NCBI GenBank assembly: GCA_945829235.1
Contig: CALZUA010000031.1
Coordinates: 1 to 36,826 of the forward strand
Origin: an uncultured Clostridia bacterium
GTDB taxonomy: Bacteria > Bacillota > Clostridia > Oscillospirales > Ruminococcaceae
Length of the DNA stretch: 36,826 bases
Reading direction: 5' to 3'
Shown: positions 12,402 to 35,411 of the stretch, in pieces
How the letters are laid out: every line of letters begins with the position of its first letter
Numbering within the stretch: position 1 is the first letter of the stretch
Program-made: the position numbers and the translations under genes
Notes under the pieces: generated by a model
What the model was told of the DNA's origin: nothing
Database searches by the model: none
The model's input: the letters and a program-made list of their open reading frames with translations, nothing else

Positions 12402-13403
12402 TTGATATATGATGTATTTTCACTATGGAGTGCTTATGGGGAGATTTTTTCCGGTAAGCCGGTTTGGTTTATAATTCTGTTTGCTGCAATTCACATCATA
12501 TCCCTTTTTCTCTGCATAAGGTTTGAAAAAAAGGGTATGCTTGGGAAGCGTCACAAGGGATTTTCTGCGTCACTTCATTATATGTTGTGGTGGCTTGTAA
12601 TTCTTGTTGTTCCTGTTTTTGGGGCATTGTGTTATGTGATGGGGGCGATTATACCGTTTCTAATTTGGAAAAAAGAACACCCCGAAGATGAGCGTTTTTC
12701 ATATAATTGCTCTCTACGGGTTGGACAGCTTTGGCTGATGGTCGCTTTTGGAGTGCTTGGAAAAATTCTGGAGTTTATATTGTCTTGGACGGGACTGATT
12801 TCTGTTGAGTTACATTTGGAGTTTATTGTAGCATTTGTTTTTTTTATCATAATAGTTTCTTGCGATATGATAACCGACTTTCTGAACAAGAGAGTTTATA
12901 TCTCGCTAAAATCTGCTGATAATCGTCCACTTGTTAACAAGGGAAAATTATTGGGGAAAAAATTACAAATTATTGATGATTTGAGATACGGTGAGGAATA
13001 TTCAAAAAGAATAAAGACAGAAATGAAGGCTGTTCGTATTGTCGCTGATGTTTTTTTTGATCAGCATCCTTTGGTTACTAAAAAAGCGAAGTCTTTTGTG
13101 CATAAAGATAAAGTTGATGCGGATGGTTATGTGTTTTTATATTCAATTCCGGAATATGGCAAGAAGAATATGCCCGATGTGGTAGAAACAAAGTGTATGA
13201 TGTTTCGGGGATTGACTCAACTGACTATAATAGAGGATTATGATGATAAATATATTCAGCGCACGATATATGTTGTAATGCCGAAAATAAGGTATATGTT
13301 AATGCGTTTTGGGATTTTACTTATGGTGCTGATTATATTATTTACGCCTGCTTTTATTGATCAACATTTAGAAACAATAAAGTTTTTTGCGAACTTAGTA
13401 TAA
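12402..13403 (+). CDS. Multi-pass membrane protein, unknown
   Basis: About 333 residues. Start is uncertain: GAAAGG (12385-12390) favours the TTG at 12402; an in-frame GTG at 12393 is too close. Hydrophobic segments lie near residues 18-38 (VWFIILFAAIHIISLFLCI), 60-85, 108-130, 138-158 and at the C-terminus (about 300-325). Between them is a basic soluble stretch (about 165-295) with beta-type pattern. I do not recognise the family. As the first gene of the operon it may anchor the complex to the membrane or act as a transport or pore component. It ends 18 bp before the Hsp70-like gene. Confidence 0.75.
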   Translation: MIYDVFSLWSAYGEIFSGKPVWFIILFAAIHIISLFLCIRFEKKGMLGKRHKGFSASLHYMLWWLVILVVPVFGALCYVMGAIIPFLIWKKEHPEDERFSYNCSLRVGQLWLMVAFGVLGKILEFILSWTGLISVELHLEFIVAFVFFIIIVSCDMITDFLNKRVYISLKSADNRPLVNKGKLLGKKLQIIDDLRYGEEYSKRIKTEMKAVRIVADVFFDQHPLVTKKAKSFVHKDKVDADGYVFLYSIPEYGKKNMPDVVETKCMMFRGLTQLTIIEDYDDKYIQRTIYVVMPKIRYMLMRFGILLMVLIILFTPAFIDQHLETIKFFANLV

Positions 13404-13421
13404 TTTATTTCGGAGGTAAAA

Positions 13422-15008
13422 ATGTTAAGGGTTGGAATTGATCTTGGAACAACAAATACTGTTGTAAGTTACATAGATAAAAATGGCGATTGGGAGAAGT
13501 TGAGCTTTAGCAACGGCAGACCCGATGACCGCTGTTTGTTGCCTTCAATGGTTGCTATTTGCAATCAGTTGCCTATAATTGGTCAAGGGGCAGTAGACCA
13601 TTCTATGAGTTTCCCGAAAGAGTGTTGCCCCAACAGAAAGAGGGAAATGGGACAGCGGAGTAACTCGTGGCTTATCGGTTCGGAGTACCTGTCGCCGGAA
13701 GAAATTTCGGAATACATCTTGAAGGAAGTCTATAACGAATTATGCAGAAAATTCCCAAATGAAACATTTAATGCGTTTGTCACTGTACCCGCCGGCTTCA
13801 CCAATAACGCAAGAATTGCCACAAAAAAGGCATTGATTGCCGCTGGATTTTATGTGGATGAAAATTGTTTGGCTGATGAGCCGGTTGCCGCTGCGATTGC
13901 TTATAGTTCCGAGCTGTCTGATAATGAATATGTTCTTGTTGTAGATATCGGCGGCGGTACATTTGATCTTTGCTTGTTGGAGTGCAATTATGTTGGCGGT
14001 ACAGATTTGCCTGACCGTATTATACCTATTGAGGTAGGGTGCGACTCGAATAGTGGGCTTTTTCTTGGCGGAGATGCAGTTGATGAAGTAATCTTAAAGT
14101 ATATGGTCAAAGAGTTCAATAAAGCTAACGGCTGTAATGTCCCGTATGATATTTATAATTCAAACACTGCTACGGATGAAGAATTGAAGGCAGCTGTTGC
14201 AATGAAATCAATGATTCTCGAAGTGAAGAAGGCTCTTTATGCCGGAAACGATGAGGCAAGATGTTTCAAGCAGAATATAATGTCCGGAAAAGACTTGGAT
14301 ATTACGATTACGAGAGAAAAGTACTGCAGACTTATGGCTGAACCTTTTGATGGAAACAAAGACAGAACGGATAAAGATAACAACAAGCCCTTTAGTATTA
14401 CCGAAGGTTTTGGGTTTTGCATTGACAACTTGTTTAGGGGAATTAAAACCGAAATCAGGCACAAGGTGAATACGGTATTGCTGGTTGGTGGAATGTCCCG
14501 CGAGATTTGTCTTAACCAAATACTTAATACGCAGTTTGCGAATGTTATTGTAGCTCCTGAAAACCTTGCATTGTATCTTGTTTCAAGGGGTGCCGCTATC
14601 TGTAATAGCAATTTGCGTGTGAAGGTTGAAAGCATCGCATACACATCAATAGGAATAGTCCTTCGCAATGGGGAGGCTGTTAGCAACATTATCGAAGAGG
14701 GCAGTAGGATTGATGGCAAAACAACCTATGAGCACACATTTAAGATTGAAGACAAAGACGCTACAGCCGTTAAGATTATGATTGTGGAATATCGCGGTGA
14801 ATATAACGAGCACGATTTTAAGAATGGCAGATATGCTGTAATATTGGACGAGAATGTCCAACTAATGGATAAATTTTCAAAGCTTAGTGGCTTAAAAAGC
14901 AGGGAAAAAGTCAAGTTGATTTGCAAGTTTACAGTTGATAAGATACTGCTGATTACAGTGAAGAATGGAAATAAGTCTAACTTGTTGGATGTAAAACTGG
15001 GGAGATAA
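13422..15008 (+). CDS. Hsp70-like chaperone lacking the helical lid
   Basis: 528 residues, RBS TCGGAGG. The nucleotide-binding domain shows phosphate-1 VGIDLGTTNT (4-13), VTVPAGFTNNAR (120-131), EPVAAA (153-158), phosphate-2 VVDIGGGTFD (173-182) and adenosine motif VGGMSR (355-360), all as in DnaK. A shortened substrate-binding beta domain follows (about 400-528), but the C-terminal helical lid of DnaK is missing; DnaK is about 610-640 residues. It should bind ATP and possibly client proteins. The phosphate motifs look intact, so it is probably active. It is followed 2 bp later by a second actin-like ATPase, and a DnaJ-type zinc finger was encoded earlier in the island. It is clearly not the housekeeping DnaK. 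Confidence 0.9.
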   Translation: MLRVGIDLGTTNTVVSYIDKNGDWEKLSFSNGRPDDRCLLPSMVAICNQLPIIGQGAVDHSMSFPKECCPNRKREMGQRSNSWLIGSEYLSPEEISEYILKEVYNELCRKFPNETFNAFVTVPAGFTNNARIATKKALIAAGFYVDENCLADEPVAAAIAYSSELSDNEYVLVVDIGGGTFDLCLLECNYVGGTDLPDRIIPIEVGCDSNSGLFLGGDAVDEVILKYMVKEFNKANGCNVPYDIYNSNTATDEELKAAVAMKSMILEVKKALYAGNDEARCFKQNIMSGKDLDITITREKYCRLMAEPFDGNKDRTDKDNNKPFSITEGFGFCIDNLFRGIKTEIRHKVNTVLLVGGMSREICLNQILNTQFANVIVAPENLALYLVSRGAAICNSNLRVKVESIAYTSIGIVLRNGEAVSNIIEEGSRIDGKTTYEHTFKIEDKDATAVKIMIVEYRGEYNEHDFKNGRYAVILDENVQLMDKFSKLSGLKSREKVKLICKFTVDKILLITVKNGNKSNLLDVKLGR

Positions 15009-15010
15009 CT

Positions 15011-17299
15011 ATGGAAATTACACTTGAAAAATGGGTTGAATTATTGCATAGGCATAACTCACCTGTTGAAGTTTACAACCGCAAAGTGGCCGATATTTTA
15101 TCACAGATGCTTAACTGGATTTTGGAAGGCAATGTTGGCATTACGTTACGTAATAGCAGTCTTATAATAGACGATAGGTATAATTTTCTTGATCCCGAGG
15201 TTTTTGGAGATTATAATTGCATTCCGGTGGATAAATATACTGAAGATGAGGACGGGGACATTAGACCTCGTTACGACGATTCGGATAGTGAGCTTAAGGA
15301 AAGCGATTCGGTATATGTAGCGGGTTTTATCCTCTATTTTATGGTGAAAGCAGACAAGCCTAAATTAGCTTTCATTTATAGAGGACAGCCGGATGGAGCG
15401 GTATTGAAACTGGAGAATTCCTCATTTGATAAGCTTGTACAGTCTATGACCGAGGCTAATCCCGAAAATAGAATCAGCGCAAAAGAGGTACTGAATGTAC
15501 TGGCAGAACAGTTTCCCTCGGATGCTAAAATTTTGCTCGTTGATAAAGACAGCGACGCCGAGATTTCGACCGAAACCATTTCACTTAAAAGTGCGGAAAC
15601 AGTGTGGGTATGCGGTGAGAGTCGCAGGGAGTTCCGAGGAATGCCTTACCGATTTTGTGAGAAAAAAATAAAGTTGCCTTACAGAACAGGGGGAATTACA
15701 CGGAAAGTCAAGGTAAGTTTTTTTAGGGAAGATGTTACTCTCACCAGTAAGCTTGGTAGCGGCGGAAAATTTATTGGAATTGACATCGGTAGCAACAGGA
15801 CAAAGGTATCCGTGCTCGAGAATAAAAAGATTTATACTTGTAAGATAGACGGAGAATATTCTATTCCCACTGCAGCAGAGTATAATGGCAACAAATACTA
15901 CTTCCTTTCCGATAAAGAAGAAAGAGTGTTCTTAAAGCGAAATGATGACTCGCAAATTGAGATATCTAGGCAGAATGCAGCAGAGACGTTTTTCAGAAAG
16001 CTTTTAGCCATTTGCAACGACTGCGACGGGATATGCTTTACTTATTCCGGTGAGCATTTTGAGATGCTCGACAAAGTGCGAAAAGACGTGTTTTCCGAAG
16101 CAAAGTATGTATCCTTTGTTTCCCCGCTCAAAAGCGCAGGTACTTCCTTGCTCCGTGAAAAAAATTTAAAAGGGAACGTACTGTTGGTGGATATTGGCGA
16201 GTCGGAGGCACGAGCAGGCATTGTTATTTGCGATAGTGAAAACTGTTCATTGGAGTGGAAAATTGAGAATAGCATTTCCGGCGGCAGAAGTGTTACCGAT
16301 AGAATTTATGAAAAGCTTATCTCTCACCTTGATGCAGTGAACATTCCTATGAGAAGTCTTGGCGAATCAAAGATTAGTTCTGAAAATTATATTCATAATA
16401 TTAGAACTCTTCGTTCTGCGGCAGAGAAATTGAAATGCCAAATGTCATTTTCTAAAGAGAATGATTCTATTATGATTGACATCGGTCTTGTTCGTCCGGA
16501 TTCCACAATTCAGACAATCACGGTAAATTCAAATGAATGTGGGTTAAGGGAAGTAATCGGAAGATATGCAGATGATGTTTCTGATATGATTAAAGAATCT
16601 ATAAGCAGAGCAGGATTGTCTGAACGTAATATCGGTTGTGTTATTATCAATGGAAAAGCAGCAGTTGTACCGTTGGTTTGTGATGGAATCAAAAATATTT
16701 TCAATAATATGAACTGTCAGATAATTGAAAATATGTCGGATATTACCCTTCAGGCGAGGGGCGCAGCGATGATCCCGTCTTTAAATTCTGCTGATAGAAA
16801 TGAGATAGCGGTACAGCATTTGTTTTCGGATATCGGAATTGTTGTTGCAAGTTCCGCTGGAGGAACTGCCCCCGAATTTAGAAAGCTTCTATCAGCGGAT
16901 ACTGCCTTCATAAATGGAAAGGTCTTTTTCGCTTACAGAACTGCTATACGGCGTGAAGAGTTAGAGGATGGTTGCTATGTCTTGCGGCTTTACAAGCGCG
17001 ATAAAGGGTGCAGCGAGAAATATCTCAATGGAATTAATGATGGGATTAAATATTTTGGACGCGTCCTTGTGAAGATTGAGGATGATTTTAATTACGAAAC
17101 TAATGTGCTTATGTTTAAATTGTGGGTTGATACCTATGGTAAATTGAGTGCTGAAGTAACAATCGAGAGGAAAGTCACCAACACCGAGAATGTGAAAACT
17201 TTATTTGGGAAATTGTTTGGGCGAGAAAAAAATATTGTGCGAGATGGTCATTTGATACTTGGCAGTCCGGATTATGATGTTGAGATAAAATTAAAGTAA
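15011..17299 (+). CDS. Pseudokinase-like domain fused to Hsp70/actin-like ATPase
   Basis: 762 residues, start 2 bp after the previous stop with GGGGAGATAACT as RBS. Residues 1-165 resemble only the C-lobe of a protein kinase: ESDSVYVAGFILYFMV (97-112) fits helix F, and MTEANPENRISAKEVLNVL (146-164) fits the closing helices; HRD and DFG motifs are not seen, so it would be catalytically dead. From about 250 comes an Hsp70/actin-like ATPase with FIGIDIGSNRTKVSV (about 254-268), LLVDIGESEARAG (about 391-403) and VIINGKAAV in the adenosine position. The last 170 residues look like a substrate-binding beta domain. Expected role: ATP-regulated partner of the Hsp70-like protein. The kinase part is inference from pattern only. 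Confidence 0.78.
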   Translation: MEITLEKWVELLHRHNSPVEVYNRKVADILSQMLNWILEGNVGITLRNSSLIIDDRYNFLDPEVFGDYNCIPVDKYTEDEDGDIRPRYDDSDSELKESDSVYVAGFILYFMVKADKPKLAFIYRGQPDGAVLKLENSSFDKLVQSMTEANPENRISAKEVLNVLAEQFPSDAKILLVDKDSDAEISTETISLKSAETVWVCGESRREFRGMPYRFCEKKIKLPYRTGGITRKVKVSFFREDVTLTSKLGSGGKFIGIDIGSNRTKVSVLENKKIYTCKIDGEYSIPTAAEYNGNKYYFLSDKEERVFLKRNDDSQIEISRQNAAETFFRKLLAICNDCDGICFTYSGEHFEMLDKVRKDVFSEAKYVSFVSPLKSAGTSLLREKNLKGNVLLVDIGESEARAGIVICDSENCSLEWKIENSISGGRSVTDRIYEKLISHLDAVNIPMRSLGESKISSENYIHNIRTLRSAAEKLKCQMSFSKENDSIMIDIGLVRPDSTIQTITVNSNECGLREVIGRYADDVSDMIKESISRAGLSERNIGCVIINGKAAVVPLVCDGIKNIFNNMNCQIIENMSDITLQARGAAMIPSLNSADRNEIAVQHLFSDIGIVVASSAGGTAPEFRKLLSADTAFINGKVFFAYRTAIRREELEDGCYVLRLYKRDKGCSEKYLNGINDGIKYFGRVLVKIEDDFNYETNVLMFKLWVDTYGKLSAEVTIERKVTNTENVKTLFGKLFGREKNIVRDGHLILGSPDYDVEIKLK

Positions 17300-17318
17300 G
17301 TCTGATAATGGAGGCTCT

Positions 17319-17933
17319 ATGGAACATTTAGATACCCCTGAAGGGCAAATCAGAATTTCTTGGTACACTCCCGCAACGGAATGTCTTGGTATGGGGAAAA
17401 GGTTTGCTGTATGGGTTCAGGGCTGTTACAAGTGCTGTAAGAACTGTATAGCCAAACAGTTGCAGAGCACCAAAGGCGGAGAATTGAAGAGTGTTGCAGA
17501 GCTTGCTGATGAAATAGTTTCGTTGAGTATAGATGGAATAAGTATAAGTGGCGGAGAACCATTTCTTCAGGCAAGGGAGCTTGCAAATTTGCTCAAGCTG
17601 GTAAAAGAAAAGCGTCCCGAACTTGGCGTGATAACTTATACAGGTTATCTATATGAGGAATTGAAGGACGATGAGTATGCAAAGCCGTTTCTTTCTCGGA
17701 TAGATATTCTCGTTGATGGTGCTTATGTGGAAGAACTTGACGATGGCGCTCCTATGCGTGGTTCATCGAATCAGCGTGTGCTGTTCCTTACCGATAGGTA
17801 CAGCAATGAAGAACTCCCGAAAGAGCGGAAAAACAAGATTATTTTTGAGGACGATTACTTTGCAATGATAGGTATTCCATCGGAGTCAACCAAACGTTTG
17901 ATTAAGTTATTTTCCTCCGATAAGGAAGAATGA
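17319..17933 (+). CDS. NrdG-like radical SAM activating enzyme
   Basis: 204 residues, RBS ATGGAGG. The cluster motif C36-x3-C40-x2-C43 (GCYKCCKNC) and SGGEP (77-81) mark it as a radical SAM protein; length and the N-terminal VWVQGC resemble NrdG, the activase of anaerobic ribonucleotide reductase. NrdG-type enzymes make a glycyl radical on a partner. No glycyl radical enzyme is in this window, so the target is either elsewhere or this copy has another job, such as modifying an operon protein. There is an extra cysteine at 39 within the motif. No SPASM domain. It overlaps or nearly touches the next gene. Not housekeeping nrdG, because nrdD is absent. Confidence 0.88.
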   Translation: MEHLDTPEGQIRISWYTPATECLGMGKRFAVWVQGCYKCCKNCIAKQLQSTKGGELKSVAELADEIVSLSIDGISISGGEPFLQARELANLLKLVKEKRPELGVITYTGYLYEELKDDEYAKPFLSRIDILVDGAYVEELDDGAPMRGSSNQRVLFLTDRYSNEELPKERKNKIIFEDDYFAMIGIPSESTKRLIKLFSSDKEE

Positions 17934-17953
17934 TTAAGAAAGGATGGCGCAAA

Positions 17954-18694
17954 ATGGCTGTTACGCTAAAACCAAACGAAATGTTTTACTTGAATTTGTT
18001 CAACATTTCCAATAATTACATCGGGAATACATTAAGAACGTTCTTAGAAATGTCTGATTCTAACGGAAGACGGGATACCGCAGAGGTTTCTGCCCAAAAC
18101 GCTGAGAAAATCAAGGCAATTACGTCGGATTGCAATTTAAGGATTCTCTTTGATTTTGATAAAGAAAAGAAACTTTCCGGTTGCATCATCACCATACGAA
18201 ATGACAAACAGGAGTGTTCGAGAATCATAGAAACTATGAAACTTCGCTTTGAGAGCGCAGATATTTCTGTTAGAAATCTTGAAATAAGATACAACGTTTT
18301 TGAAAGCGGGGAAAGTGCTCAAAAAGCAACTATCGGTCAATTTGAAAAGCTCTTTGTTGATACGCTTTCATTTGAAAAGAATGAATCGGGATATGAGATT
18401 TATCCCGTGACAACTGTTTTGCAGACGGACAGCTCAGGCGGCTTGAGTTTTACCGATGAGGACATTAAGGCGATGATACTTGCGGATTTGAAGGTGCTCA
18501 AGTGTTTTGCTAAAACAGAGAAAGTTGAAGATAATATCCGATTGCTTGAAGAAATGAAGAACGGAAACAGACCGTCGGATTATGGTTCGTTACTTGCGAT
18601 AGAGCAGCAAATTGCGGGGTTGATTGAAGATGCACTTTTAGATGTCAGAAGATACAGAGCGAGTTTATTATCCTACGAAAAGAAAGGAAAATAA
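17954..18694 (+). CDS. Unknown operon protein (246 residues)
   Basis: I start at ATG 17954, with AAAGGA (17939-17944) 9 nt before; an ATG at 17930 overlapping the previous stop would add 8 residues. The protein is soluble, without signal or membrane segments. Residues about 1-150 have an alternating alpha/beta pattern, the last 60 are helical and charged (EQQIAGLIEDALLDVRRYRASL). I do not recognise a family. Position between the radical SAM activase and a coiled-coil protein 6 bp downstream suggests a structural partner of one of them. Confidence 0.75.
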   Translation: MAVTLKPNEMFYLNLFNISNNYIGNTLRTFLEMSDSNGRRDTAEVSAQNAEKIKAITSDCNLRILFDFDKEKKLSGCIITIRNDKQECSRIIETMKLRFESADISVRNLEIRYNVFESGESAQKATIGQFEKLFVDTLSFEKNESGYEIYPVTTVLQTDSSGGLSFTDEDIKAMILADLKVLKCFAKTEKVEDNIRLLEEMKNGNRPSDYGSLLAIEQQIAGLIEDALLDVRRYRASLLSYEKKGK

Positions 18695-18700
18695 TATAAT

Positions 18701-20137
18701 ATGGCAGTATCAAATGCGCAAGTTGCTGAGCTCGAACGAAGACATAGAGACCTTTTGAATCAAATGGCAGACATTAACCGCCGGATTGAACGGGAAGAAC
18801 AACGGTTAAGGCAGGAATTTGAACAAAAGGTTGAAACTATCAAGCGAGATACGAGCATCAAATTGCAGGAGCGTGAGAAAGCAATTCGCGAACTGTATGA
18901 GGAACAGCTCAATCATGCGGTTTCCAAACAGGAGGAAGAACTTCGGCGCGAGTTTGATAGAGTTGAATGTGAATATGAAAAGGTATGTGCTGATATCAGT
19001 GCCGCAAAAGCAGAGCTTGTGCGGCAAACGGAGGTCATCAAGCTTGAACAAAAAGAGTTTGAGGAGGCATATAGAGCCCGCCGAGAGGCTGAAAAAATTC
19101 TGGCTGAACAGGTGTTGCAAGAAACAATTTCAGAGTATAAACGATTAGATGCGGAAGTGCCGATGGAGTGGTTTGCTCCGAGCCATCTGAAATTGTATTC
19201 AAATCGCATTAGCGACATAAGCGAACGTATTCGTAACACTTGGTACGAAATCGCTGCTGCCGCAGGCGAGAATGTTTTGCTTAATATGCGCCTTGACAGA
19301 CTTAATGTAAAAGCCAAATTGGAAAAGTGGCTGAACATTTACACGACAGTTTGCAGGTTGATCGAGAGAGCACGGGTACTACTTTATGACGAGTTTTTTC
19401 TGCTCCCTGAAAATGCTGTTAATACGGCGCGGGTTTTCAATATTATTGACAGAAAGATACCGAAGGATAAGGTTGAGCTTTGGTCACAAAACAAATATTC
19501 TTCAATCTGTTCCGACTATTTGGATTTCTATAAAAAAATGAGTCCTTTTTGTGTGGATGGAAAGTTTATTGCAGAGGAAAATATGGTGGCTTTTTTGCAA
19601 AAAAACTACCAAGAGTATGCGTCTTGTTTTCGGGATAGTGATTTATATGGGATGAAAAGGGAGTGTGAGAATCTTCTTGATCGTATCATAACCTTGATTT
19701 CAAGTCTTCGTGTTGATATTAACTCTTTTGAGGAACGTTTGAGTATCATATCAGACAACAGTGAGTGGGGAATAATCAGACTTCTTAAAAATGCGGGTTA
19801 TAACGTGAGTTCTGTTGAACCTATTTACGATGAGTTGTTGAATACTCCGATTTTAATTGAATTTTCCGATAACTTTAATACGATGGATTTTGAGGTGATA
19901 ATAAGTCCTGTACATAGATTAGGAGATGCAACTATAATCAACTTTGTTAGCTGGTTCTATCCTTCCAGAGCGGGAAATGAGACAGTTAGAGAGATTGAGC
20001 ATATTATGGCAGATGCATTTATTGCTAAAAATATTTCCGTTTCTCAGAAGGAAATTCAGCCAAGTGAAGATTTAATGACTAGAGTCAGAAATGCACTTAA
20101 TGAAAAAAATCGCCTGATTAACGGGCGGACAAATTAA
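18701..20137 (+). CDS. Coiled-coil protein, unknown
   Basis: 478 residues, RBS AAGGAAA. Residues about 5-150 are a long, highly charged coiled coil (RRIEREEQRLRQEFEQKV and similar heptads), followed by a helical middle and an alpha/beta C-terminal part (about 360-450). No enzymatic motif. No signal peptide. Such proteins form rods or oligomers that hold complexes together. Followed after 76 bp by another coiled-coil protein; this is the longest gap inside the operon and contains no obvious terminator. Confidence 0.78.
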   Translation: MAVSNAQVAELERRHRDLLNQMADINRRIEREEQRLRQEFEQKVETIKRDTSIKLQEREKAIRELYEEQLNHAVSKQEEELRREFDRVECEYEKVCADISAAKAELVRQTEVIKLEQKEFEEAYRARREAEKILAEQVLQETISEYKRLDAEVPMEWFAPSHLKLYSNRISDISERIRNTWYEIAAAAGENVLLNMRLDRLNVKAKLEKWLNIYTTVCRLIERARVLLYDEFFLLPENAVNTARVFNIIDRKIPKDKVELWSQNKYSSICSDYLDFYKKMSPFCVDGKFIAEENMVAFLQKNYQEYASCFRDSDLYGMKRECENLLDRIITLISSLRVDINSFEERLSIISDNSEWGIIRLLKNAGYNVSSVEPIYDELLNTPILIEFSDNFNTMDFEVIISPVHRLGDATIINFVSWFYPSRAGNETVREIEHIMADAFIAKNISVSQKEIQPSEDLMTRVRNALNEKNRLINGRTN

Positions 20138-20213
20138 ATGAAATATTAGTTATTCGATGAAATAATCGCAAGAATTTTCATAGCAGAGATTTATTTTTTG
20201 GAGGTAATTTGTT

Positions 20214-21653: not shown

Positions 21654-21675
21654 TTTATGATTGAGGGTGTGAGAT

Positions 21676-24543: not shown

Positions 24544-25099
24544 GCTCTGCCCGTTTTGCAGAAAATCAATTAAGAGCGGCGTCGAACTTTTGCTTGAAGG
24601 GTATCAGGATAACAATAGGATGTGCAAGGATTGTTTTAAATACTTGTACAAAAATATCTCTGCGGGGAGAACTGTAGGATATATAGATAACAGCTCAAAC
24701 ATATTTCCCCGTTTCCTTCCTGCTCCTATCCTTGAGAAACCATTGTTTTCAAAGCGAAAGTATGCAATCGGATATGAGTATCGTATGTCTGCGGTGAATG
24801 AGATGATGATATTTTATCAAAACGCCGCTTGGTTGATTATGATGCTTTTGCTGTTCCTTGTTTTGGAGCTTTGCAAAACCTTTGTTTCGATAAACACCAT
24901 AAAGATATGCGAATTTTGTGTAGACATATTGTTTGTGCTGGGTTCGTCAATTGCAGCAATCTCTGATTTGATAAATCTTATTAAGGGATTTTTTCTGGGT
25001 ATGGGACATCCACGGAGATTGATGCTTATTTCATTTATAGCAATTTTGACGATGGTGATAGTAATTTGTATAATGCGAATACTTTTATTCATCGTTTAA
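24506..25099 (+). CDS. Zinc-ribbon membrane protein
   Basis: 197 residues from a TTG with AAGAGGAAGA 7 nt before, overlapping the AAA+ gene by 38 bp. An N-terminal zinc ribbon uses C15-x2-C18 and C40-x2-C43. Then come about three hydrophobic segments (roughly 108-130, 138-160 and 170-195). No signal peptide. I know no function; the zinc ribbon suggests binding of a partner at the membrane face. A second protein with the same design is encoded at 29352. Confidence 0.78.
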   Translation: MAFWKKFEPTDSELCPFCRKSIKSGVELLLEGYQDNNRMCKDCFKYLYKNISAGRTVGYIDNSSNIFPRFLPAPILEKPLFSKRKYAIGYEYRMSAVNEMMIFYQNAAWLIMMLLLFLVLELCKTFVSINTIKICEFCVDILFVLGSSIAAISDLINLIKGFFLGMGHPRRLMLISFIAILTMVIVICIMRILLFIV

Positions 25100-25125
25100 T
25101 CAAAAAAAGAAAGAGGTAATTTACT

Positions 25126-26442: not shown

Positions 26443-26469
26443 TCATCTTGCTTATGAAGGGAGATACTT

Positions 26470-27315: not shown

Positions 27316-27325
27316 GAGGGAAAAA

Positions 27326-28330
27326 ATGAAGGTTGATCTCCTTGTATATGGAAGAGGAGCAGAACGTGATAATGGATATCAATTATTTGCAAATCCTCCA
27401 TACTGGACAGAACAAATGCTGCTTGCTATGTCCGGATTCAATGACCTTTGGATTAACGGCGACCTCTCAAATTCACAAACTGCTGCATTTAGTGCCTGTG
27501 AAAATCCATGGGGACACACATATATGTTTATTGCTATGCCCGAGCCGTTTTGTTGTGCCTTGTTAAGATGCACTCGTGTTGAAGATAACAAAGGCGGCTG
27601 GCTCAAGGAAATAAGAAATTATGATGTTTGGTCGATGGAGGGCGTTTGCTGTCCATATAATGATAAAGAGTTGTTTTGGGCGATGATTCCGTCTATCATA
27701 CTTTGGCTGGAACGTGATAATAAATCCCTTTATAGAAGATTGATTGATAACAAGATAGGAAGATCGGTTGAGATTCCCGAAGACCTACTTTTCAATCCAT
27801 TCTATGAAAACTCTATGAGCGAGGAACTTTTATCAGTTATGGGTACGGAAACTGCTCGTAACGCTATGGTTAATCTATGTAATCATATTCATTGCTCAAA
27901 TGGACCGTCGCATTTTATTTTTGGACCTCTTGCGGATTATTTTAATGAGACGGTCGGCTCAAGCTATGCTATTGTTAATACTTTTTCCACACTCGGTAAT
28001 ATGGATTTGAACTTCAAAGACCCATTTGATGAAATTACTTGCATAAGGCGTCGAACATTTAAGAAGGAATCTGTAGAGTATAATTTAAGGATTAGATTTA
28101 ACAGAAATAATGATGACATTTCCGCACGTTACTGGGAACTCGCAGAGATCAGCGAAAAAGAACCGAGCCTTATTAGCAATATGATACCGGTGGACTGTGA
28201 AAAGGGAATAGATCTGTTTGATCTTTATGCCGAGGCGGAAACAATCATTAATTTCACCAAAAAACTTGATTTCTTTCAACCCGATCCGAGTGGTGATTCG
28301 TGTAAGAGATTTAATTTTAGGAAGGAGTAA
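27326..28330 (+). CDS. Unknown protein, possible GTPase-associated (GAP1-type)
   Basis: 334 residues from ATG 27326, chosen for the RBS AGGAGGG; an upstream in-frame ATG at 27248 lies inside the previous gene. It begins KVDLLVYGRGAERDNGYQL, a strand-turn pattern that recalls N-terminal domains of GTPase-associated proteins in conflict systems, but this is a weak memory-based match. Rich in tryptophan and cysteine, no signal or membrane segment. The next gene, of equal length, starts 4 bp later. Together with the GTPase pair upstream they may form one module. Confidence 0.65.
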   Translation: MKVDLLVYGRGAERDNGYQLFANPPYWTEQMLLAMSGFNDLWINGDLSNSQTAAFSACENPWGHTYMFIAMPEPFCCALLRCTRVEDNKGGWLKEIRNYDVWSMEGVCCPYNDKELFWAMIPSIILWLERDNKSLYRRLIDNKIGRSVEIPEDLLFNPFYENSMSEELLSVMGTETARNAMVNLCNHIHCSNGPSHFIFGPLADYFNETVGSSYAIVNTFSTLGNMDLNFKDPFDEITCIRRRTFKKESVEYNLRIRFNRNNDDISARYWELAEISEKEPSLISNMIPVDCEKGIDLFDLYAEAETIINFTKKLDFFQPDPSGDSCKRFNFRKE

Positions 28331-28334
28331 CTCA

Positions 28335-29345
28335 ATGGGAAATGCGTTTTTGATATGCTTTAATTCTCTTCATTTTCCTTGCGTTGACTCGAATGAATCG
28401 TCTTGGGAGAATGTCTGCGATGATAGTAAAAATCTTCTGATTGATTTTTATCAAGACCTAAAACATAGAATGATATCCACCAACTATGTAGGAGTAACCT
28501 CTGAACAGCTTGACGGTAGCCTTTTTGGAATATGTATTACGGAAGGTTATGTTATGCTGAAATGCAGTACCGATTTGACAAAACGTTCTGTGTCTTTGAA
28601 TGGTTTTTTACTCCGCTTTGATGAAAGCCTGCGGACTGCTTGGATGATGACGCGCTGGCAACTCCTCTTTATTTGTTCTGAAGGCTGGAAATGGAATGGT
28701 AAGGTTTGGCTTTCTCCTGATGAGATTATTAAGATGGCAGATGAAATAAAACTTCCCGAACGAAAACAAGAGCAGATAGTTGAACTTGCAAAGAAGATGT
28801 TACAAACAAGTATTCCTTTTAATTTTGCACTCACCGACTATATGAAAACCAGACTGCCTTTGATATTCGATAACGGTGGAGGTAAACAGTTGGATTTCGA
28901 TACATCTCCCGTTGGAGATTCTATTGTAATCAATCAATCTGCGGTGGAGAGTATGAGACGTAATTTGTCTATGAAATCTTTGGATACAGATTGCATTCTT
29001 ATTCGATGTAGTTCAAAAACATTTGTTTCTTATAAGTTGAGCGAGGCGCAATCTACCAAAGAGAAAAACGAAATCAAAGAAACCTATAAGACCTTGCTCA
29101 AGAATGTCAAAAGTGTGTGGTGTATTCGGGTGTTTCGAGGCGAAAAATCATTTACAGAGTGTTTACCCGAGTACTATGCAAAGGAATTTGACACAAATTG
29201 TGTAAATTATAATATTGTAGATTACCTGTTTACGCTGGTGAGAAAGAGCGCCGACCAATTTTTTACCTCTTTGACCGAAAATGAGTCTGCGCAGGAAGAA
29301 AAGAAATCAATCTTTTCCAAATTAAGAAAAAATGATGCGAGGTGA
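28335..29345 (+). CDS. Unknown protein (336 residues)
   Basis: Start at ATG 28335 with GGAAGGAGT as RBS; the longer in-frame ATG at 28218 falls inside the previous gene and lacks an RBS. The protein is soluble with mixed alpha/beta pattern and ends in a charged tail (KSIFSKLRKNDAR). No known motif seen. Nearly the same length as its upstream neighbour but no obvious sequence similarity. Its end is 6 bp before the GTG of the next gene. Function unknown. Confidence 0.7.
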   Translation: MGNAFLICFNSLHFPCVDSNESSWENVCDDSKNLLIDFYQDLKHRMISTNYVGVTSEQLDGSLFGICITEGYVMLKCSTDLTKRSVSLNGFLLRFDESLRTAWMMTRWQLLFICSEGWKWNGKVWLSPDEIIKMADEIKLPERKQEQIVELAKKMLQTSIPFNFALTDYMKTRLPLIFDNGGGKQLDFDTSPVGDSIVINQSAVESMRRNLSMKSLDTDCILIRCSSKTFVSYKLSEAQSTKEKNEIKETYKTLLKNVKSVWCIRVFRGEKSFTECLPEYYAKEFDTNCVNYNIVDYLFTLVRKSADQFFTSLTENESAQEEKKSIFSKLRKNDAR

Positions 29346-29351
29346 ACCAAA

Positions 29352-30302
29352 GTGATAGAGAAAGCGTGCACCAAATGTAAAATTTATTTTCCGAGTGCAA
29401 ATGGACTATATTCTTGTCCGAACTGCTATACACCTTTGGAAAATATTAAGGATTCCAGCGGATATACTCCAAAAGACTGGAATCCGGTTACAAATGAGGT
29501 GATTGACAAAAATGCAAATAATTCCGGAAAGAAAAAAATTAAACCCACTGTTTCCGATAAAACACGGCAAAGCGGTAATTGTTCTGACACTATGCCTATC
29601 GTAAATTCTGCTCCTGACACAACATCGAAAAAATATCACACGGGTGTGATTGATAGTTATAATCCGCGCGATGTCGGACATCAGAATTTCTTTGAGAGAG
29701 CGTCTTTGTTTTTTAGGGGAATGCATCACGGAAATACTCGCTATGACATTACATTCATAGATGATGACGACAACCAAACCTATACGGTTTACTATTATGG
29801 TGAGTATAGTGCTTTGAGTTCTGCTATTCCATATCAAGGTGCGCGTATCACTGTTGAGGGCAGTCCAAATGGAAACATCTTTGAAACCGAGAATGTTTAT
29901 ATAGGCGAAGGTCTCGGACAAAAAATCAAAATGAGAAATCAAAATCCGACCGGTCATAGAACAAATCCGCTACCTGCTCTTATTGTCATTGTAGTGCTTG
30001 TTGGATTGTTTTTCTTGGTTAAGACTATTATGAGCGGTGGTTTTGACTATCTTGGCAGTATTATTCAGACACTCTTGATTTCCACAGCAATTATATTCTT
30101 TTTGGGACTTATCTTCCTCTCAAGAAGGATGCAGTTTAGGACTTTGTGTATAGGTTCGCTGGTACTTGGCGGAATAGTCACAGCCTTAATATGTAGCAAC
30201 GGCGGAGTTGCAGATGACATACAGGTAATAGTGGCGTCGGTTCTTGTTTTAGGTGCGATGATTGCCGGATTAATCGTACTGATTAGAGGTTCTTTTAGGT
30301 AG
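29352..30302 (+). CDS. Zinc-ribbon protein with four membrane segments
   Basis: 316 residues from a GTG with GCGAGGTGA as RBS. A zinc ribbon C6-x2-C9 / C22-x2-C25 is followed by a polar linker (about 35-95), a beta-rich OB-like region (about 95-195, including RYDITFIDDDDNQTYTVYYY), and four hydrophobic helices (about 208-228, 238-258, 268-285 and 290-312). It likely sits in the cytoplasmic membrane with the ribbon inside. It is the second zinc-ribbon membrane protein in the operon, next to the HerA-type ATPase, which it might anchor (inference). Confidence 0.78.
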   Translation: MIEKACTKCKIYFPSANGLYSCPNCYTPLENIKDSSGYTPKDWNPVTNEVIDKNANNSGKKKIKPTVSDKTRQSGNCSDTMPIVNSAPDTTSKKYHTGVIDSYNPRDVGHQNFFERASLFFRGMHHGNTRYDITFIDDDDNQTYTVYYYGEYSALSSAIPYQGARITVEGSPNGNIFETENVYIGEGLGQKIKMRNQNPTGHRTNPLPALIVIVVLVGLFFLVKTIMSGGFDYLGSIIQTLLISTAIIFFLGLIFLSRRMQFRTLCIGSLVLGGIVTALICSNGGVADDIQVIVASVLVLGAMIAGLIVLIRGSFR

Positions 30303-30312
30303 GTGATGATAG

Positions 30313-32985
30313 GTGGCTGAAAATATCAATGAAAATGGACTTATCCAAAAGGAGCAGGAATACCAAAAGCTTTATGACGATGAGCTTGATTCATTTCATA
30401 ATAAAAAGTGTAGATTTAAGCAGGTTAATTTAAAGGAACATCACATTACATATATTAAAATCGTGTCTATTGAAAAAACCACAGCCTCAAATCCCGCATT
30501 GACTGTAAGGACACAGATGCACAAAGTGCTTATGTCGATGTGGGCGGTTGGAATGCATTTTAATATGGTCATTCATCACCACAAATCTGAAATAAACATC
30601 TATGTTGGAAGTGAATGTTGCAGCCAGTCAACTCAAAACATCTGTTCCGATCTTAAGGACATTCTTTCGGGTTCAATAACCGGGATCGATTTTGAGAAAG
30701 ACGAAAGTGCTCAAGAAATTAAGACTTATTCATTCGGAGATTTTAGTGGTTTTTTTCAAAATAGCCGGATTGGTTTTTTTGTTGGAAATCCCATAGTTTG
30801 CGATTATTCGGAAACCGGAAATAATGTATCACCCATTGACGAGATAATTACTGGTTCCGATGGAAGTGATTGGATTTTGTGTATCACGGCTGATCCGATA
30901 TCAAAAGCTGATATTACAAATAGCAGAAAGGGCTGGTATAAGGCGCTTGCAGAGTGTAGTCGTTACTCAAATGTTAGCTTTGGATATGGCGTCGTCGGAG
31001 TTAACCGTTCTATGTCGTTACAGGAAATGTTTCCCGGCACGAAATTGTACACTGAACTTGCGCAGAAAAGTTGCGATGAGCTTGATGAGGCAATGCGGTG
31101 CGGACAGTGGAACGTGGGGATGTTTTGCGCGGCAAGTGATGATAAGTGGAGAGATATTTTTGGCGGAATGTTTTCCGCGCACTTAAAGAGCGGAACGGAG
31201 CAAATCCAACGTCCTTTTCCGTTTGAATACAGGCAACAGAATCAAAATATTTGTTTTGTTGCTCCAATTCAATATCCGTCATGTGAAACCTCAACAAAAC
31301 TTACAACTAGTGAGCTTGCAACTATCAGCGCATTGCCGGTAAGGGATACTTGCGGATTTAATGTAGCAGAGCGTGTGGAGTATGACGTATATAGAAAAGA
31401 TGTTGGCGATCTTTGCTTAGGAAAAATAGTTAGCGGGAGAAATATCACATCTGCGGATTATAGACTAAATATTGACACGCTTAATCGTCACGGACTTATT
31501 GTTGGTCTTACCGGAGGCGGTAAAACCAATACTGTAAAAAGTTTACTTCATTCTTTTTATTCTTTGAAACGTCCATTTATGGTCATAGAGCCGGCAAAAA
31601 AGGAATACTTTGGGATTTACAATATGGGAATAACCGACCTCAAGATTTTTTCCGTGGGTTCAACAGATGGAATCCCGCTGATGATAAACCCGTTTGAAGT
31701 CCCGCAAGTAGAAGGACGGAGGGTATCTCTTCAATCGCATATTGATGCCGTTTTTGCGGCATTTAAGGCAAGTTTCATTATGTACACACCTATGCCTTAT
31801 GTTTTGGAGAATGCGATATATGCTATTTATCGTGATTATGGGTGGGATCCCGAAAATAATGAAAATCGTTTTGGGAGAACAGATTATCCCACTATTGAGG
31901 ACCTTTACTATAAGATAGGTCCGGTGGTTTGGGAGATGGGCTACGATAAGAAGATGCAGAACGATCTCATCGGTTCCCTAAAAGCGAGAATAAATTCCCT
32001 TCGTGTTGGTGCAAAGGGGAGCACTCTCAATGTAGCGAAGTCTGTAAATATGGAGAGCCTTCTTGAGGGAAATACAATTATTGAGCTTGATGATGTCAAT
32101 GATGAAGACGCAAAATCTTTTGTAATAAGTCTTTTGCTTTTGCAGATACAGGAGTGTAGAAAAGTGCAGTCTACTACTCAACAAAGTATAAGACACATTT
32201 TGCTTATTGAGGAGGCGCATCGACTGCTTAAGAATATTTCATCTGGAACAGGCGAGGGAGCAGATCCACGAGGAAATGCTGTGGAGTTTTTTTGCAATAT
32301 GTTGGCAGAGTTAAGGAGTAAGGGGCAGGGTTTTCTTGTTATTGATCAAAGTCCTACGAAACTTGCGCCCGACCTTATAAAGAATACGAATTTGAAAATT
32401 GTTCATAGAATAGTAGCAGGTGATGACAGAAACCTCGTTGGTTGTGCAATGAATATGACGAAAGAACAAATTGGATATCTTTCCTGTTTGAAGCAGGGAT
32501 ATGCTGCAGTTTATTCTGATGGTGATAATCATCCGAAGCTGGTAAGGTTCCCGTATGCCGGTGATTTTGAGCTGAAAGGGAGTGAAAAATTTTCGAGACG
32601 TGATATTTTGGAAAGAATATCAGTTAATTTCACTCAAGAAAACCGCGGTGATCCTGGGTTCACCAATCAGAATAGCATAAATCCAATATGTCGTCATTGT
32701 CGAGAATGTCGGAATTGGACATCGCCCGAAAGTAACCTTGCTAATTACAAGGAAGTTTTGGATGCAACCCGTAAGACATATACTGAATCGCTTCGTGAAG
32801 CAGTTAAAATGATACAGGACTCCGACTGTTTTAAAGGGTGGGAGATTTGCGTGCTTGCAAGTTGGTTTTCTGAAAATATGTCTGGAAGTGTATTCTATGA
32901 TAAATACTCAAAATCATTGACAAATGTTATTGATTGGCTTAATCGAATAAAAAGACGGGGTGATAGGGAGTATGGCATTAGATGA
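30313..32985 (+). CDS. HerA/FtsK-superfamily ATPase
   Basis: 890 residues from a GTG with AGGTGATGAT as RBS. The ATPase core has Walker A GLTGGGKT (398-405) with the following VIEPAKKEYF strand, Walker B LLIEEAHR (E633, E634) and the sensor strand GFLVIDQSPTKLAP. This layout is that of HerA-type hexameric ATPases (DUF87 type), which pump DNA or, in some systems, act with nucleases. The first 380 residues are an unrecognised N-terminal region. Near the C-terminus is a small cysteine knuckle C793, C796, C799. HerA proteins often pair with a nuclease; the next gene, which overlaps by 14 bp, may contain one. Confidence 0.88.
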   Translation: MAENINENGLIQKEQEYQKLYDDELDSFHNKKCRFKQVNLKEHHITYIKIVSIEKTTASNPALTVRTQMHKVLMSMWAVGMHFNMVIHHHKSEINIYVGSECCSQSTQNICSDLKDILSGSITGIDFEKDESAQEIKTYSFGDFSGFFQNSRIGFFVGNPIVCDYSETGNNVSPIDEIITGSDGSDWILCITADPISKADITNSRKGWYKALAECSRYSNVSFGYGVVGVNRSMSLQEMFPGTKLYTELAQKSCDELDEAMRCGQWNVGMFCAASDDKWRDIFGGMFSAHLKSGTEQIQRPFPFEYRQQNQNICFVAPIQYPSCETSTKLTTSELATISALPVRDTCGFNVAERVEYDVYRKDVGDLCLGKIVSGRNITSADYRLNIDTLNRHGLIVGLTGGGKTNTVKSLLHSFYSLKRPFMVIEPAKKEYFGIYNMGITDLKIFSVGSTDGIPLMINPFEVPQVEGRRVSLQSHIDAVFAAFKASFIMYTPMPYVLENAIYAIYRDYGWDPENNENRFGRTDYPTIEDLYYKIGPVVWEMGYDKKMQNDLIGSLKARINSLRVGAKGSTLNVAKSVNMESLLEGNTIIELDDVNDEDAKSFVISLLLLQIQECRKVQSTTQQSIRHILLIEEAHRLLKNISSGTGEGADPRGNAVEFFCNMLAELRSKGQGFLVIDQSPTKLAPDLIKNTNLKIVHRIVAGDDRNLVGCAMNMTKEQIGYLSCLKQGYAAVYSDGDNHPKLVRFPYAGDFELKGSEKFSRRDILERISVNFTQENRGDPGFTNQNSINPICRHCRECRNWTSPESNLANYKEVLDATRKTYTESLREAVKMIQDSDCFKGWEICVLASWFSENMSGSVFYDKYSKSLTNVIDWLNRIKRRGDREYGIR

Positions 32986-34960
32986 TGACAAAAGCTCTTC
33001 CGGCGGGGAGAGCGGCGGTTACGATTCCGGTGTAAGCGACAGTGGTATCGGAGAAGGTTCAGGCACTTTTGAGGGAAGCGACTCCGGAATAGAATCCGGT
33101 GGGAATTTCGATTTTAGCGATTCCGAAATTGATAGTGATGGAGTAAAATTTGACTTTGATGCCTCGGAAATAGATACCGCAGGGGATAAATTTGACTTCG
33201 ATTACGAAAATTTGGAAATGTCAAATTTGCCCGAAACGGAGGAATCTCAAGAAAAAATTAATCCTGCCGAAATAAATTATAATTCTGTAGTTGGAAATGA
33301 TGTTGAGAATAAAGAGAGTGTGGAGCATCAAAACGAAATACTCGATATTAACTCTCAACTTTCCGAAATAAGAGGATATCCTCAAGATGCAGAGAAGTTA
33401 ATAGGGAAAGATACGCTTAAAAATCGTATTGAGAAAGACACAACCGTTGACAAAGACGCTGATATGAGTTCGCGCTATATTGACATTACCAGAGCAAAGG
33501 GGTTTCTTCAGGAAGAGATGATCAAGTCAACCCTAATAAATGATTTTGAAGTATCCGAACATACGGTAAAGTCGGTGCATAATGATGGCACGGTTACTTA
33601 TACGGATATTGAGGCGGTTGCGAAACATAATCTAGAAATAAATGGTGGTTTGGTCATATCTGCGGGAGAGAAAATTGCTATTGAATCTAAAGCGGGCAAC
33701 GAAAAGTATATTGCCTCACAGATTGAACATATTGATAAGCAACTTCAGGGAATGCCTGATGATTCACATCGTTTGCTTTTTATAACCGCTGATGTCAATC
33801 GACTCAATGATGAGGACAGGGCGAGGCTTGAAAACGTTCTTCAAAAAAACAATGCCTCGATGAATGTAGTGCCCTATTACGCCTATGATTTGACGGATAC
33901 CATTATGCACATGAGGATTGATACAGATGTTAAGCTCAGGGATGACGAGTTTGAAGAAATAGATGATGAAAATCAAGCAACATTCAATTCTGACGAAAAG
34001 TTGTCATTTGGCGGTGCTGTAGAGGCTCTTTTTGGAAGCAGGACAGTGAAGGGAAATAATGCATCGGAATCAGTCAATGAGAGCATAAACAGATATCTTG
34101 AAGGTGATGAAAATACGCAGCCAGATGCTGATGAAAGAGAATCTCTTATTGCAAAGGAAGAGGAGCGCCTTGAGGCTGATAGGGAAACGGTAAAACGCCT
34201 TCTTGAGGAAAACAAAGAGTTGAGCGAACTTTCTGATGAAGAACGTGCGGCGGTGCTGAACGTTGCGATAGTTAAGGCAATGGAACATGACCCATCGCTT
34301 TCATTGGACAAGGCGGAGGATTATCGAAGCAAAATTCAGTTTGTCACACTTTCAGAGGTTGCCAAGGATATCGGTATGGACCTGAACTATGCAAGAAGAA
34401 TACAGGGATATTATTCCCCTGAAGGAGGAATGAGGATAAATGTTGACGCGTATGGCTCAGATACTGATGAGGCGCTTGTCACCATTGAACACGAGGCGAT
34501 ACATATGCTTGCACAACGCTACGACAGCAATGACAAGGCTATTCCTGGTATGACGGGATTAAAAAACAATAAACTTTCCGGAAGAGCAAATAATACCGGT
34601 ATGAACGAAGGAGTAACGGAGATGTATGCATCACGGGATATGTCGGAACTACTTCCAGATCGCCAAGAACGAAGTTATGTTCGAGAAGTTAAGGTTATGA
34701 CAAGGTATGAGTCTATTGTTGGCGCTGACATACTCCATGAGGCATATATGAAAAGCGGAGTAACTCCTCTCAAAGAGGATTTTGACAAGTATATGGGTGA
34801 ACGGCAATTTGATAATTTCTGCATTATTATGGATATAATGCTTTTAGCGGAAGAAAATCGTGATGGTGATGAGGCAGAAGATATGCATCAAGAGCTCAAT
34901 GCTATGATGGATGAGTATGCCAAGAGAAAGGAGAATAACGGCAATGAAAACAGTCGATGA
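32972..34960 (+). CDS. Acidic protein with nuclease-like core and HExxH metalloprotease
   Basis: 662 residues from ATG 32972, with GGGGTGAT (32957-32964) 7 nt before; a GTG at 32960 is the alternative. Residues 1-75 are Ser/Gly/Asp-rich and very acidic, a probable disordered tail. Residues about 165-300 have an alpha/beta pattern with IAIESKAGN (E238-x-K240), compatible with a PD-(D/E)xK nuclease-like fold, though the first acidic motif is unclear. The C-terminal part has HEAIH (H507, E508, H511) followed by NEGVTE (545-550), the signature of a gluzincin metalloprotease with the third ligand in the NEGxTE motif. This is the best effector candidate of the operon. No signal peptide, so it acts inside the cell. 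Confidence 0.78.
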   Translation: MALDDDKSSSGGESGGYDSGVSDSGIGEGSGTFEGSDSGIESGGNFDFSDSEIDSDGVKFDFDASEIDTAGDKFDFDYENLEMSNLPETEESQEKINPAEINYNSVVGNDVENKESVEHQNEILDINSQLSEIRGYPQDAEKLIGKDTLKNRIEKDTTVDKDADMSSRYIDITRAKGFLQEEMIKSTLINDFEVSEHTVKSVHNDGTVTYTDIEAVAKHNLEINGGLVISAGEKIAIESKAGNEKYIASQIEHIDKQLQGMPDDSHRLLFITADVNRLNDEDRARLENVLQKNNASMNVVPYYAYDLTDTIMHMRIDTDVKLRDDEFEEIDDENQATFNSDEKLSFGGAVEALFGSRTVKGNNASESVNESINRYLEGDENTQPDADERESLIAKEEERLEADRETVKRLLEENKELSELSDEERAAVLNVAIVKAMEHDPSLSLDKAEDYRSKIQFVTLSEVAKDIGMDLNYARRIQGYYSPEGGMRINVDAYGSDTDEALVTIEHEAIHMLAQRYDSNDKAIPGMTGLKNNKLSGRANNTGMNEGVTEMYASRDMSELLPDRQERSYVREVKVMTRYESIVGADILHEAYMKSGVTPLKEDFDKYMGERQFDNFCIIMDIMLLAEENRDGDEAEDMHQELNAMMDEYAKRKENNGNENSR

Positions 34961-35411
34961 GATTCTTAATCAAGTGGAGGCAGAGGCATTTGACGGAATA
35001 ACCTCCGACAGTATTAAAATCAGATTGAGGACAATGTATGAGCGTGTGTTGCAGTCTGCAAAGCCCGAGGATATAGACGCAGTGGTTACGGATATTGTTG
35101 AATATGAAAATGAATCGTCCCTTTCTACATTGAAGAAGCTCAACAAGTATCTCAACTTGACTGTTGAAACTACACTTTCAGATTATTCAAGGGCATCAAT
35201 GTATTTTGCGCTGAACAGAGCGGAAACCGGAAGGAAACACCCCGTAGCGGCGTACTTAATCGAGACATTTAATTCTTTTGTGGATGAGAATGAGCAGGAG
35301 ATTAAGGCGTTGGATGAACTTCTTCTTGTATCGGATATTCTTTTGGATTTCAATTATGCCTCTGGAAATTCTGATGTAATGAGCCTGCGCGTTAAAAATA
35401 TCCTTTTTTAA
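34944..35411 (+). CDS. Small helical protein, last gene of the operon
   Basis: 155 residues from ATG 34944, preceded by AAAGGAG (34927-34933) and overlapping the previous stop by 17 bp. All-helical by pattern, no known motif. The overlap suggests tight coupling to the metalloprotease, so an immunity or inhibitor role is conceivable but not shown. The stop codon lies only 2-3 bp before the end of an IS3 element, so the original C-terminus may have been altered. Confidence 0.75.
   Translation: MKTVDEILNQVEAEAFDGITSDSIKIRLRTMYERVLQSAKPEDIDAVVTDIVEYENESSLSTLKKLNKYLNLTVETTLSDYSRASMYFALNRAETGRKHPVAAYLIETFNSFVDENEQEIKALDELLLVSDILLDFNYASGNSDVMSLRVKNILF

Follow-up and report, generated by a model that had tools for sequence, protein, structure and literature searches.

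The 36,826-nucleotide stretch of DNA analysed here (the window) is the entire contig C31 of the 3.23-Mb genome of an uncultured Clostridia bacterium of the Ruminococcaceae. Our analysis revealed in it a run of 17 open reading frames (ORFs), all on the + strand between 12393 and 35411, that probably constitutes a stress or conflict system of only partly described kind. The run divides into module A (13 genes, 12393-29345) and module B, which comprises the HerA gene 30313, 32972 and 34944 (genes are named by their start positions). The reading that we prefer, and hold tentatively, is that module A works as a membrane-linked machine for sensing and switching, with module B, a HerA/toxin/immunity cassette, as its output. 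The genes of the run are the following (cut-offs are those of the respective models; related loci carry L numbers and genomes G numbers).

12393-13403, + strand: membrane protein, first gene of module A; orthologues stand first in L051 and L052; PLDc_N match below cut-off.
13422-15008, + strand: Hsp70-family protein with DLGT and DIGGGT motifs and a short C-terminal part (Pfam HSP70, 2.3e-32).
15011-17299, + strand: protein with a pseudokinase-like N-terminus and a degenerate Hsp70 ATPase domain (Pfam HSP70, 4.5e-10).
17319-17933, + strand: NrdG-like radical SAM protein with CxxxCxxC and SGGEP motifs (Fer4_12, 1.1e-32; TIGR02491 below cut-off).
17930-18694, + strand: unknown protein between the radical SAM and coiled-coil genes, listed by position; without Pfam match.
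18701-20137, + strand: coiled-coil scaffold protein CC1 with a C-terminal alpha/beta domain; residues conserved in 26 aligned sequences.
20214-21653, + strand: second coiled-coil protein, CC2, with a hydrophobic N-terminal stretch (by eye).
21676-24543, + strand: N-terminal 'YG' domain and tandem CbbX/SpoVK-type AAA+ domains (AAA, 3.2e-23; TIGR02881, 1.7e-68, below cut-off).
24506-25099, + strand: zinc-ribbon-like membrane protein (cysteine pairs and transmembrane segments read by eye); homologues in L051 and L145.
25126-26442, + strand: P-loop GTPase, apparently a remote DO-GTPase relative (DO-GTPase2, E 0.016, below cut-off; profile-profile match).
26470-27315, + strand: unknown protein; orthologues in the same slot in G824 and G825.
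27326-28330, + strand: GTPase-neighbour protein with an N-terminal YGR motif; orthologues in L144, L145, L055 and L094.
28335-29345, + strand: second GTPase-neighbour protein, last module A gene in G824 and G825; hhalign match to 27326.
29352-30302, + strand: zinc-ribbon membrane protein (BLASTP 6e-8 to L094:6559-7629, the opening gene of the L094 operon).
30313-32985, + strand: HerA/FtsK-type ATPase, start of module B (DUF87, 1.6e-10; NF033849, 1.3e-19, below cut-off).
32972-34960, + strand: candidate effector with a Gly/Ser-rich N-terminus and, by motifs, D...ExK (ESK at 238) and HExxH (507).
34944-35411, + strand: candidate immunity protein, by its position in the same slot as a YezG-like protein in L143.

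The starts at 27326, 28335, 32972 and 34944 were set by ribosome-binding sites (ORF labels 27248, 28218, 32960 and 34911), and with starts so placed the gaps range from -38 to +76 bp. An earlier sequence-only reading of the window had described this one-strand spacing correctly and had counted 16 genes, one fewer than were found. Its inventory of parts was also borne out: at least five distinct nucleotide-binding proteins (13422, 15011, 21676, 25126 and 30313), scaffold coiled coils (18701 and 20214), two zinc-ribbon membrane proteins (24506 and 29352, by cysteine pairs in the translations) and one HExxH protein (32972) are present. It had left unnamed the NrdG-like radical SAM protein 17319, the pseudokinase-like N-terminus of 15011 and the possible immunity gene 34944. 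Matches above the Pfam cut-off were obtained for the Hsp70, Hsp70-like, radical SAM, tandem AAA and HerA proteins, but none for the GTPase, the two coiled-coil proteins, the membrane proteins, 17930, 26470, 27326, 28335, 32972 or 34944. A stem-loop of 16 pairs with a T-rich tail at 12239-12277 sets the operon apart from 10936-12015. A consensus scan listed no + strand terminator-like site from 29254 to 36826 (chance level 6.9 per region), and therefore none between A and B. The gap in front of HerA measures 10 bp.

Conserved gene order elsewhere is the better evidence for the run, and such order is found for module A in two Ruminococcus metagenome-assembled genomes, G824 and G825. G824 (L051, L144) keeps the order 12393-13422-15011-17319-17930-18701-20214-21676-24506-25126-26470-27326-28335, followed by unrelated genes; G825 shows the same order split over two contigs, L052 covering the genes as far as 20214 and L145 those from the tail of 21676 onward, and behind them come thiS/thiF/thiG-like genes (named by eye). 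In both genomes the 17930 orthologue was assigned by position only, and no 29352 homologue was found behind module A. Many module A genes also occur in L055 and L094, the latter running from a zinc-ribbon transmembrane protein (the 29352 homologue) through Hsp70, radical SAM, both coiled coils, AAA and GTPase to a pair of proteins occupying the 27326 and 28335 slots, of which the second had no phmmer match. The sequence-only reading had taken the whole set for one complex akin to NTP-dependent conflict systems. Its likening of NTP switches and scaffolds to such systems stands, but the single unit does not, as the first 13 genes keep their order in two genomes that gave no HerA match. It had also named homologues scattered through unrelated contexts as telling against the set; separate contexts were found for HerA and 32972 but not for 13422, 21676 and 25126.

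Among 100 relatives searched with HerA, 15 genomes matched at 1e-3, with six strong loci besides the window (33-37% identical); together with two from G830 these make up eight HerA relatives (L018, L019, L020, L022, L024, L025, L142 and L143). Nuclease toxins above the Pfam cut-off lie within two genes downstream of HerA in three of the eight, as first gene in L143 (Endonuclea_NS_2, 9.2e-29) and L019 (WHH, 1.6e-15) and as second in L024 (Colicin-DNase, 2.1e-24). Downstream matches below cut-off were seen in L142 (NERD, 5.4e-4) and L020 (HNH, 0.012), no convincing Pfam toxin followed HerA in L022, L018 or L025, and HExxH proteins were recognized by eye in L024 and L025. The gene after the toxin is YezG-like immunity in L143 (7.3e-15), DUF6985 in L019 (1.7e-16) and a weak DUF7832 match in L142. 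Upstream of HerA, Dynamin_N genes are present in 5/8 (L020, L142, L022, L024, L143); the contigs of L018 and L019 begin <0.5 kb from HerA, and in L025 the gene in that place is, by eye, resolvase-like. None of the 20 window proteins scanned matched Dynamin_N, and module A occupies that place. Except for NrdG in G019, which stands beside NrdD about 17 kb from HerA, nothing from module A was matched at E <= 1e-3 in the available flanks of the eight loci.

The gene order of the window fits HerA, a toxin-type gene and a small gene, and module B resembles a toxin/immunity deployment cassette. The proposal of the sequence-only reading that 32972 is the effector is upheld as to position, which matches the toxin-type effector slot in some other HerA loci. 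The 32972 protein had no match in Pfam, PHROGs, PDB, plasmids or phages; in a single comparison its HExxH stretch matched the L024 protein (E 4e-6, 42 residues), and by eye its D...ExK stretch may be read as a nuclease. The AlphaFold2 model of 32972 failed (pLDDT 38.5), and 34944 had no family match. A match of G920 to the 32972 C-terminus was rejected as spurious, lying inside a long unrelated ORF.

In the working that we propose, the Hsp70 protein 13422, the pseudokinase-Hsp70 protein 15011 and the coiled coils 18701 and 20214 would together make up a scaffold for capturing abnormal or foreign protein, which the tandem AAA protein 21676 would remodel with ATP. The radical SAM protein 17319 may modify or mature a component, the GTPase 25126 with 27326 and 28335 could act as a threshold switch, and 24506 and 29352 would anchor the machine at the membrane. 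Once tripped, HerA 30313 would load or drive the nuclease- or peptidase-like effector 32972, which 34944 would hold in check. We infer the joint action of A and B from the continuity of the operon, in a single instance.

CC1, in which W261 and R346 are invariant and G264 nearly invariant across the 26 aligned sequences, was found within the genus in its own genome and as one weak partial match among 42 others, and module A is therefore regarded as accessory. The GTPase (P-loop GPVGSGKT) was found in 1/197 genomes of the order, and the AAA protein at E <= 1e-40 in 1/299 phylum genomes, its own; a search of the AAA protein against genome contigs gave no match, nor did 15011 against plasmids or Hsp70 against viral contigs. 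Matches to 15011 appeared in 10/291 class genomes (own included), the other nine reaching <=22.4 bits and being taken as generic Hsp70. Relatives of 15011 match the Pkinase C-lobe below cut-off (L055, 4.1e-5; L051, 0.021), and that of L051 matches HSP70 at 1.6e-34. Two further NrdG-like family members in the genome each adjoin an NrdD-like gene (by eye), and no NrdD-like gene lies near 17319 in the window. A similarly sized gene fills the 17930 slot in L051, L052, L094 and L068 (position only).

The GTPase 25126 appears, by sequence comparison, to be a remote DO-GTPase relative. All its Pfam matches fall below cut-off, as do those of its counterparts in L094 (DO-GTPase, 1.9e-4) and L145 (DO-GTPase1, 1.4e-4). 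The clostridial profile matches that of the cyanobacterial DO-GTPases with a probability of 98.15 (E 6.4e-14). Compared as a degenerate GTPase, 26470 gave no significant link to GTPase profiles (probability 2.3 and 0.1). The 27326 family reached an hhalign probability of 0.5 with the GAP1-N set; 28335 matched 27326 at E 8.7e-5 (probability 60) and is possibly paralogous to it.

A wider view of the module was obtained by a contig scan with a three-sequence radical SAM alignment, from which the best 80 of 479 confirmed loci were taken and their families assigned by phmmer at 1e-6 (CC2 seeds from the window and L068). Radical SAM genes were found in 80 loci, AAA in 51, coiled coil in 49, Hsp70 in 21, CC2 in 19 and TerD in 14, with DO-GTPase-like genes (8), TelA (6), vWA (4), GAP1 (4) and PP2C (3) as further partners. 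A co-directional AAA gene lies within 6 kb (<=6 kb) in 48/80 loci, and in 40/57 of those with >=6 kb downstream; a divergent AAA gene <=6 kb upstream was seen in 1/58 loci with >=6 kb upstream. At least four of the 17/57 without such a gene (L103, L104, L105, L125) have another AAA type, ClpB-like by eye, whose N-terminal part matched the N-terminus of the tandem AAA protein (hhalign 95.6, E 1.3e-8, pieces cut by motif expression). Loci with radical SAM, coiled coil and AAA occur in Clostridia, Bacteroidota, Chloroflexi (Anaerolineae), Actinobacteria (Frankia) and Cyanobacteria (a Calothrix plasmid). Pfam identified TerD in L068, vWA just below cut-off in L057, GAP1-N2 in L077, L079 and L103, DO-GTPase above cut-off in L077 and below it in L079 and L094, and a trypsin-like domain (8.7e-25) on the AAA protein of L056.

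The Calothrix plasmid (L039), reached by tblastn of plasmids with the AAA protein, carries in a row Hsp70, a TPR protein, radical SAM, coiled coil, AAA and a zinc-ribbon protein, with GTPases nearby; identity to the window is 40% over 189 columns for radical SAM and 26% over 900 columns for AAA. Its three GTPases matched DO-GTPase2 at 2.4e-14, 3e-15 and 0.0013 (the last below cut-off), and on a Geminocystis plasmid (L042) a radical SAM gene is followed by homologues of this GTPase cluster (closest pairs 43-56%).

Other neighbourhoods of related genes were observed as well. In L117 (1-19313) a radical SAM/CC/CC2/AAA core stands beside WXG100-like (4.5e-4, below cut-off), FtsK-like, coupling-protein-like and Endonuclea_NS_2 (9.1e-19) genes, hinting, as a neighbourhood, at a link of the core to toxin secretion. 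On a Treponema succinifaciens plasmid (L046, 4582-16183) a related radical SAM and AAA pair lies amid annotated contractile-injection/baseplate genes. The plasmids L043, L044 and L047 carry NrdG-like radical SAM with AAA and DUF2997 genes (plus DUF1257 in L044); in L045, L048, L049 and L050 NrdG-like radical SAM with AAA adjoins large AAA-domain genes, with a PIN-domain gene in 3/4.

A bolder proposal, which we regard as speculative and rather unlikely in its entirety, is that a class of machines spread across phyla shares a core of NrdG-like radical SAM, coiled coil and 'YG'-domain AAA, that radical-dependent modification would arm an AAA-driven scaffold in these machines, and that the core here drives a HerA/toxin/immunity output, itself an undescribed toxin-deployment system. 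Until now its members have come to light only in isolated Ter, Hsp70, vWA/PP2C and DO-GTPase/GAP1 neighbourhoods, and our literature searches, in the portions of the papers available, yielded no description of such a core or of the HerA/toxin cassette. The locus links several poorly understood bacterial stress and conflict neighbourhoods to one recurring gene core, for which it supplies a defined, clonable set. The HerA and toxin (and immunity) cassette, in many cases preceded by dynamin-like GTPases, has the look of a system by which gut bacteria deploy toxins. If the radical SAM protein does modify the scaffold or the AAA protein, an immune or stress complex would here be armed in an unusual way.

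Several results weigh against a sensing machine coupled to a toxin output. A and B are seen together only in this window: of eight genomes with A-type genes that were searched, seven (G824, G825, G826, G827, G828, G829 and G831) gave no HerA match, and in G830, with four HerA matches, the two strong ones lie on 26.6- and 13.2-kb contigs, off the 70.6-kb contig of L063. HerA was absent at E <= 1e-6 from the flanks of all 80 radical SAM loci (0/80), and at 1e-3 a single 453-amino-acid coupling-protein-like ORF was found, in L117. No listed partner was found in 36/80 loci, and the census frequencies are biased because the loci are the best 80 of 479, picked by likeness to the window radical SAM. 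In L068 and L081, TerD, radical SAM, CC and AAA genes stand just before nusG/rplK/rplA-like genes (by eye), a setting closer to that of stress or housekeeping genes. The ORFs 27326, 28335 and 26470 gave no Pfam match to GAP1 at E <= 1, and PADLOC, run on nine window proteins (six from module A), returned only AAA/HerA models and two weak Hsp70-type matches, with a second scan similar.

A quite possible alternative, although on balance doubtful, is that module A is a machine for proteostasis or envelope stress with no part in conflict, and that module B landed directly behind it as a mobile toxin cassette. The end of module A ahead of the place of HerA in G824 and G825, together with the missing HerA match there, fits this, as do the TerD/TelA-linked core versions in Ruminococcus loci and the sequences at both window ends that we take to be transposase-like (read from ORF translations). 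The sporadic occurrence of CC1 and the GTPase argues the other way, as do the short, terminator-free junction with HerA and the GAP1/DO-GTPase, trypsin or vWA/PP2C partners that accompany some core relatives.

We consider it unlikely that the locus serves interbacterial competition, with HerA exporting 32972 as a polymorphic toxin, 34944 giving self-immunity and module A assembling or gating the export site. Polymorphic-toxin-type genes behind HerA in 3/8 loci, one with a YezG-like immunity gene, are consistent with export, as are the neighbourhood of L117, the EccA score of AAA 21676 (below cut-off) and the FtsK/HerA ATPase described as a type VII secretion system (T7SS) motor in the available part of PMC3482391. 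Yet no WXG100 or T7SS membrane-part match was found among the 17 proteins at E <= 0.1, and HerA-nuclease complexes can work in anti-phage defence, according to the available part of PMC11291478. A conjugation or integrative and conjugative element locus is very improbable: HerA 30313 gave scores below cut-off with VirB4-like and TraG models, but it matches HerA and NF033849 better, and no relaxase or mating-gene Pfam match was found in the 20 window proteins scanned (five further upstream ORFs lie outside the scan).

Elsewhere in the window, 10642-12015 holds a short ORF, presumably PqqD-like, before a radical SAM/SPASM gene (Radical_SAM, 2.2e-20), a pair that by sequence looks like a peptide-modification pair. 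A 963-amino-acid Sel1-repeat protein (7660-10551) has 13 repeat stretches and a C-terminal part of different appearance. The AAA ATPase at 416-1648 matched PADLOC DolB (9.2e-12), and the transposase on the other strand beside it is one we take to be IS21-like. A sigma-70 promoter-like site (35686-35714, 12/12) lies just before the transposase-like sequence running off the contig end.

The locus shares parts with several known systems and differs from each of them in others. Unlike housekeeping NrdG, 17319 has no adjacent anaerobic ribonucleotide reductase gene. Ter stress systems are built on TerD/TelA, and in Ruminococcus loci TerD copies stand ahead of the same radical SAM/CC1/CC2/AAA genes, whereas Pfam found no TerD in modules A or B. 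The partner in HerA-nuclease anti-phage complexes is reportedly DUF4297; neither DUF4297 nor SIR2 was matched in the proteins scanned. A HerA ATPase gene adjoining a nuclease-like effector gene is common to the window and those complexes as far as the accessible part of PMC11291478 describes them, but behind the HerA relatives the effectors belong to the polymorphic-toxin nucleases or carry HExxH, an immunity gene accompanies one of them, and 5/8 loci have dynamin-like GTPases upstream. T7SS toxin/immunity loci, in the available portion of PMC3482391, similarly pair an FtsK/HerA ATPase with toxin-type genes, and the window adds an EccA-like AAA below cut-off; unlike them, its 17 proteins gave no Pfam match to a WXG100/LXG substrate or an EssB/EccB-type membrane part.

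The closest parallel is the Hsp70 theme of DO-GTPase/GAP1-N2 systems (PMC7159879, available in part), with which the window has in common a TRAFAC-type GTPase, Hsp70 with a second Hsp70-domain protein, zinc ribbons, transmembrane proteins and variable effectors. In related loci, DO-GTPase and GAP1-N2 genes accompany the radical SAM/CC/AAA core. Unlike those systems, the window lacks a Pfam match to GAP1, GrpE or FNIII, and no FNIII or GASH partner was matched in the 17 proteins at E <= 0.1. Because the GAP1 test failed, module A is not filed as a DO-GTPase/GAP1 system; by analogy it may, at most, work like one. The radical SAM, coiled-coil and tandem AAA core and the HerA cassette are absent from the accessible text of that account (PMC7159879), which reports paired GTPases in 38% of the systems and describes them as nearly absent from cyanobacteria. 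In contrast to this, clear DO-GTPase2 genes lie on the Calothrix plasmid, with close homologues on the Geminocystis plasmid.

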